Part shown: piece after piece, positions 31,339 through 31,429 of the stretch
Position numbering within the stretch: the first letter of the stretch is position 1
Layout of the letters: the number at the start of each line of letters is the position of its first letter
IMG/VR virus record: IMGVR_UViG_3300013130_000001
Span: 1-38,542 of that record
From: a virus
Direction: 5' to 3' (one strand)
Length of the DNA: 38,542 bases
Translations under genes and position numbers: made by a program
The notes under the pieces: generated by a model
What the model was told of the DNA's origin: nothing
Database searches by the model: none
Seen by the model: the letters and a program-made list of their open reading frames with translations, nothing else

Positions 31339-31375
31339 CAAAAAACGGCAGACGAGGATCAACCCCGTCCGCCGT
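31339..31375 (-). terminator. Strong intrinsic terminator just after the late promoter
   Basis: On the minus strand positions 31375-31363 pair with 31357-31345 in a 13-bp stem (two G-U pairs) with a 5-base loop, followed by six T (31345-31340). It can end the early (ParB) transcript and also lies about 20-55 bases downstream of the start of the 31402-31429 promoter, so late expression needs readthrough or antitermination. Confidence 0.9.
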
Positions 31376-31401
31376 CACACATGGCTCCCACGAGCGTGAC
31401 C

Positions 31402-31429
31402 ACTATACCACACTCAGCGGAAACTGCAA
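31402..31429 (-). promoter_or_regulatory. Late-gene promoter (pR'-like)
   Basis: Minus strand TTGCAG (31429-31424), 16-bp spacer, TATAGT (31407-31402), with a TGTGG extension matching the TGTGGTATAAT phage promoters at 38351 and 2039. Predicted start about 31395. The -35 directly abuts the stop codon of the ParB-like frame. Confidence 0.75.

Follow-up and report, generated by a model that had tools for sequence, protein, structure and literature searches.

A promoter-like element precedes a terminator-like hairpin ahead of the first late gene

In the viral DNA analysed here, the late operon opens with a promoter-like element followed closely by a terminator-like hairpin, and the order promoter, hairpin, T-tract and late-operon start is kept in related uncultured phages. 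The best reading of this promoter–hairpin unit, and one that we consider probable, is that it acts as an antitermination gate of the late operon, similar to pR'/tR' of phage lambda and to the AlpA and GafZ systems. The DNA, called the window below, is the IMG/VR virus record IMGVR_UViG_3300013130_000001 from position 1 to 38,542 (38.5 kb).

The promoter-like element lies on the minus strand, between the stop codon of a ParB-like gene (31430) and the gene for a C39-like peptidase. Its -35 element is TTGCAG (31424–31429), which agrees with the consensus at three of six positions, and the 16-nt spacer ends with TGG, directly before the -10 hexamer TATAGT (31407–31402). The whole promoter thus spans 31429–31402, and its extended -10 element 31402–31410. 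The initial annotation had placed an extended -10 promoter here, with a start at about 31395; it is borne out by the TGG-TATAGT sequence and by a predicted +1 at 31395. The leader between the predicted start and the hairpin is about 19 nt long (31377–31395, minus strand), so that the hairpin starts 20 nt past +1, and it forms little stable structure of its own ahead of the terminator.

The hairpin (31344–31376, minus strand) consists of 14 bp, three of which are G-T, and a 5-nt loop. It runs into a tract of six T (31340–31345), the first two of which are also the final two bases of the stem. The RNA fold of 31395–31337 has a predicted energy of -31.5 kcal/mol (z -4.9), and none of 200 shuffled sequences was as stable. 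The stem had been described as 13 bp long and the terminated RNA as about 55 nt; together with the start, these values are right to 1–2 nt. No Rfam family matched at the gathering threshold.

The promoter–hairpin pair is not expected by chance

A generic consensus terminator scan gave no excess (4 found versus 3.1 expected), and would therefore not have revealed by itself the excess of this hairpin. With a stricter score, which looks for a G+C-rich hairpin and then T and uses Markov-shuffled strands as the null, two hairpins were found on the minus strand, and the one at 31376–31340 was far stronger than the other (32.5 versus 24); the shuffles predict 0.03 hairpins scoring at least 30 per strand. 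Pairs made of a promoter and then a hairpin within 120 nt were absent from 60 shuffled strands and from 278 kb of further viral strands, most of which are unrelated. Five of the nine loci examined, which are the window and eight related ones, carried such a pair, always where the late operon begins. The observation of a promoter followed by a hairpin is real and was confirmed.

Gene order and nature of the phage

Nearly all window genes are carried by the minus strand. A match to all 12 consensus positions, TTGACA-17-TATAAT with a TG (38297–38325, minus strand), is probably the promoter with which the early operon begins. Leftwards from 31284, the late genes encode the peptidase, a basic protein, a probable small terminase subunit, the large terminase subunit, the portal, an SU10-type capsid protein and tail proteins. 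The C39-like peptidase (30586–31284, minus strand), which matches PF13529 and for which homologues were found, is probably a lysis or virion hydrolase. The next three genes occupy 28409–30584 on the minus strand; the small basic protein comes first, the large terminase subunit was identified by a PHROG match, and the small subunit is the probable assignment of the gene between them, from its position and conservation.

The portal gene (26169–28219) is split over two frames, and the frame of the ParB-like gene is broken near 31780. In relatives these are single frames (a portal of 626 aa in L008; ParB-like proteins of 507–511 aa in L003 and L034), so that both splits are probably indel errors in the window record.

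A serine recombinase with Recombinase and zinc-ribbon domains (825–2036, plus strand), which is oriented opposite to the other main genes, is probably an integrase; its presence suggests that the virus is a temperate phage. No relatives were found in bacterial genome contigs, hence there is no prophage context and no host assignment. Named phages had only a distant terminase in common with the window, and the collections searched contained no cultured phage closely related to this group.

The promoter–hairpin unit is conserved in related uncultured phages

Relatives were gathered via the terminase, peptidase and small-terminase genes. A search of viral contigs for C39 peptidases gave nothing with a single protein, and 12 loci with an alignment. 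The late operon starts with a promoter and a hairpin in the window, in L002, L003, L005, L006 and L033–L034, in L029/L030 and in L037, and in a weaker form in L020 and L021; L008 had the hairpin but no clear promoter. The L021 and L008 hairpins carry TTTT, with a promoter match that is weaker or absent, respectively. A second promoter–hairpin pair in L021 (6798–6903) was set aside, as it lies inside a minus-strand coding frame. The hairpin of L009/L010 (2906–2938 in L009) is 5.3 kb ahead of the terminase gene.

In contrast with the imperfect -35 element of the window, a perfect TTGACA is found in the other C39-clade phages. In L002, L003, L005, L006 and L033/L034, it overlaps the stop codon of the ParB-like gene and is 16–17 nt away from a -10 element, TATGAT or TACCAT, preceded by TGG. 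Downstream of the -10 element, the L002 clade has a hairpin (13 of 15 positions paired, 12 of 15 in L005) with TTTT, a ribosome-binding site and the peptidase gene. L029/L030 have TTGACA-17-TATAGT, a 15-bp hairpin and five T. Their upstream gene is divergent and not ParB-like, which indicates that the promoter–hairpin unit belongs to the late operon. The divergent genes themselves (L029 328–654 and L030 301–735) encode different small CxxC...CxxC proteins, and the late units of the two loci are near-identical. In L037 and L020, the late operon opens with another peptidase, which we judged from its sequence to be of the M23 type, and the leader runs for about 100 nt before the hairpin.

The pairing of the hairpin is better kept than its sequence: 8 of the 14 pairs differ between the window and L029, all of them are still paired, and five are two-sided compensated changes. 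A T-rich tract comes right after the stem in all loci, with at least four T except in L020, which has three. The tracts are short in the L002 clade (TTTTGCG) and in L020 (TTTG), so that termination may be partial there.

Within the L002 clade, the ParB-like 3' end is far less conserved (60% identity) than the promoter (85%), the leader (84%) and the hairpin (94%). Over its first 300 nt, the C39 gene is also 82% identical, so that block-wise exchange of the late module could account for part of the higher conservation of the unit. In most members of this clade only about 20 nt separate the hairpin from the start codon (about 45 nt in L003), which leaves no room for another promoter; late transcription must therefore cross the hairpin.

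The spacer is alike within the L002 clade and not across lineages, and the leader sequence is also poorly kept across lineages. GGGGGCC or GGGGGCT stands directly ahead of the hairpin in the L002 clade and in L029, and the G-rich GTGGGAGCC of the window leader resembles it at a similar position; as a suggestion, this stretch might be a pause or loading site. A long leader pattern matched one contig and a shorter one matched only known clade members; no nut-like repeat of the leader element was present elsewhere in the genome.

A probable terminator-gated late promoter and its alternatives

Because most of the L002 clade has no place for a late promoter beyond the hairpin and because the T-tract is conserved, a terminator-gated late promoter is the simplest reading, and the retention of the unit in related phages suggests a viral factor that lets RNA polymerase through. 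The host main sigma factor and RNA polymerase would start at about 31395 and transcribe the leader of about 20 nt, and the RNA would be efficiently released at the hairpin and T-tract after about 55 nt. Read-through would be regulated by a phage factor, presumably a protein, made from the early operon: it would load onto the polymerase at or near the late promoter, the hairpin would no longer terminate, and transcription would proceed into the late operon of roughly 30 kb with its peptidase, packaging and virion genes. Early transcripts that come in from the ParB-like gene would be ended by this terminator too.

The initial annotation had proposed a pR'/tR'-like switch at this place. The part that stands is a predicted late promoter directed into a conserved terminator-like hairpin lying in the path of late transcription; on the other side, the window and six related records, some of which are incomplete, contained no match to the Q/Antiterm families PF06530 and PF03589 at E ≤ 1, and a -10-like pause element is not conserved among the loci compared. 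The main rival explanation is a leaky attenuator, which would terminate part of the time and need no special factor, the late rise being due to gene dosage after replication or to host factors. The absence of a detected antiterminator family in these seven records would fit such a leak, as would the short T-tracts of the L002 clade and L020. However, the hairpin of the window is strong and is followed by six T, and conservation of the whole promoter–leader–hairpin unit suggests a regulated step; we regard simple leakiness as unlikely.

The unit might also be a small-RNA gene, in which a stable RNA of about 55 nt has a function of its own and late read-through is secondary. A free-standing promoter and terminator with a predicted product of 55–60 nt would suit such a gene, and the lack of an Rfam family means only that nothing known was recognised, but the hairpin of the L002 clade is in the 5' UTR with no other promoter site, so that the late mRNA contains the same sequence, and little of the leader sequence is kept between lineages. 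This makes a dedicated small RNA improbable; an RNA of about 55 nt is compatible with being a by-product of the antitermination switch.

About as improbable is an RNA-based mechanism, either antitermination of the HK022 put type or a ligand- or protein-responsive leader, in which the nascent leader would modify the polymerase or refold. The GGGGGCC/GGGGGCT that recurs shortly before the hairpins of the L002 clade and of L029, and the leaders of roughly 100 nt in L020 and L037, could be viewed in this way, but in the group of the window the leader has only about 20 nt with little stable fold before the terminator, and nothing in it was matched by Rfam at the gathering threshold, which sets it apart from put-type sites. 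Least probable of all is that the hairpin serves only to close the early operon, or to give stability to the late mRNA at its 5' end, next to a chance or minor promoter-like sequence: immediately upstream of the unit, the ParB-like gene does come to its end in the window and the L002 clade, and probably also in L037, but L029/L030 keep TTGACA-17-TATAGT and the hairpin despite a divergent upstream gene, and the promoter is more conserved than the gene that precedes it.

Comparison with known promoter-loaded antiterminators

If the antitermination reading is right, the promoter–hairpin unit would be a new, sequence-unrelated example of a known layout. By sequence, it has the Q-type arrangement of a late promoter, an intrinsic terminator and the first late gene, as in lambda, 21 and 82, with lysis and packaging genes downstream and an early gene ending right before the promoter. 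In contrast with these lambdoid phages, the phage of the window has no Q-family protein, no conserved -10-like pause element, and a hairpin only about 20 nt past the start, whereas tR' of lambda is nearly 200 nt downstream of the start. Q and AlpA need a -10-like pause element. Candidates for such an element in or next to the initially transcribed region are CACGCT at -3 in the window and TAGCGT at +5 in L029, and none is present in L002, L003, L006 and L037; the element is therefore not conserved among the loci compared.

Q of lambdoid phages loads at the promoter, and the polymerase then ignores the terminator (PMC6606751). AlpA of Pseudomonas aeruginosa, which controls lysis genes, is likewise a promoter-loaded antiterminator with the same kind of layout, a sigma70 promoter (that of alpB) and an intrinsic terminator (tB) before the first gene (PMC7969949, PMC9371919). 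CACGCT near the window start resembles the AlpA pause element CACGAT, but the published AlpA motif GGGACGN5GGTA is not found as such, by eye, between the -35 and -10 elements of the window, and the AlpA locus consists of bacterial lysis genes whereas that of the window is a phage late operon. GafZ also provides promoter-bound antitermination of a phage-derived structural gene cluster, in the Caulobacter gene transfer agent (PMC11150451); the GafYZ system differs in that a repeat array, located past the first gene, acts as its terminator and in that the activators IHF and GafY are needed.

Q, AlpA and GafZ share no sequence, so that new antiterminators cannot be found by homology. A conserved promoter–hairpin unit that opens the late operon provides a homology-free way to spot phages that may encode one, and in the present case narrows the search to one short early operon.

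Candidate antiterminators in the early operon

Two early proteins had been put forward as the antiterminator, an HTH/zinc protein and the ParB-like protein. Both are putative candidates: the first has relatives in L003 and L020, and the second was not found in the L020 record. It is a tentative possibility, rather doubtful at present, that one of them belongs to a new class of processive antiterminators that has no relationship to Q, AlpA or GafZ and would load at a late promoter whose terminator is unusually near. No antiterminator was named among matches of the early proteins to Pfam and NCBIfam, and no candidate protein was found to accompany the promoter–hairpin unit in every lineage.

The HTH/zinc protein (35367–35882, minus strand) combines an HTH with a CxxC...CxxC motif. 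L003 and L020 are both of the other records that show the early region, and mainly the CxxC...CxxC part is common to the relatives. The structure model was too poor for a judgement (pLDDT 71, pTM 0.37), had no PDB match better than E 1 and resembled no antiterminator; a structural relationship with Q was accordingly not retained. Sequence matches of this protein to mitochondrial uS9 were probably spurious and were also discarded.

The orphan ParB-like gene (31430–32850, minus strand) ends right before the promoter and encodes ParB_N and HTH_ParB domains and a Cys-rich, zinc-ribbon-like C-terminus whose cysteines are conserved. It adjoins the promoter in the window and the L002 clade, and probably in a third lineage, L037, whose upstream frame is similar by eye to the ParB-like C-terminus. 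A search with PF17762 detected no ParB-like gene in the 41.8-kb L020 record. The types of ParB 3' end do not sort with promoter types, as the L005 and L033 ends are 86% identical and their -10 elements differ. A role as a partition (ParABS) protein was rejected, since the ParA companion (PF13614) is absent from the window and from all eight related records, several of which are fragments.

Two further early genes deserve mention. One (33550–33963) encodes a conserved protein of 137 aa. The other (32835–33557) contains two identical copies of the palindrome AGTCCGG-N4-CCGGACT (33086–33104 and 33234–33252), 148 bp apart, which flank an AT-richer stretch. Its L020 homologue (35% identical) has TCCGG-N4-CCGGA twice, 146 bp apart; neither the window nor the L020 locus had further copies of this type, and L003 and L034 lack the pair. 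The paired palindromes might mark a replication origin situated within the gene of an initiator. Other repeated perfect palindromes were observed in L020, which has seven copies of GCCGAGC-N4-GCTCGGC (at 1540, 14583, 14918, 15182, 17313, 17355 and 20318), and in L021, which has five copies of GTTCTGC-N2-GCAGAAC (at 2799, 6182, 7931, 8321 and 13895).
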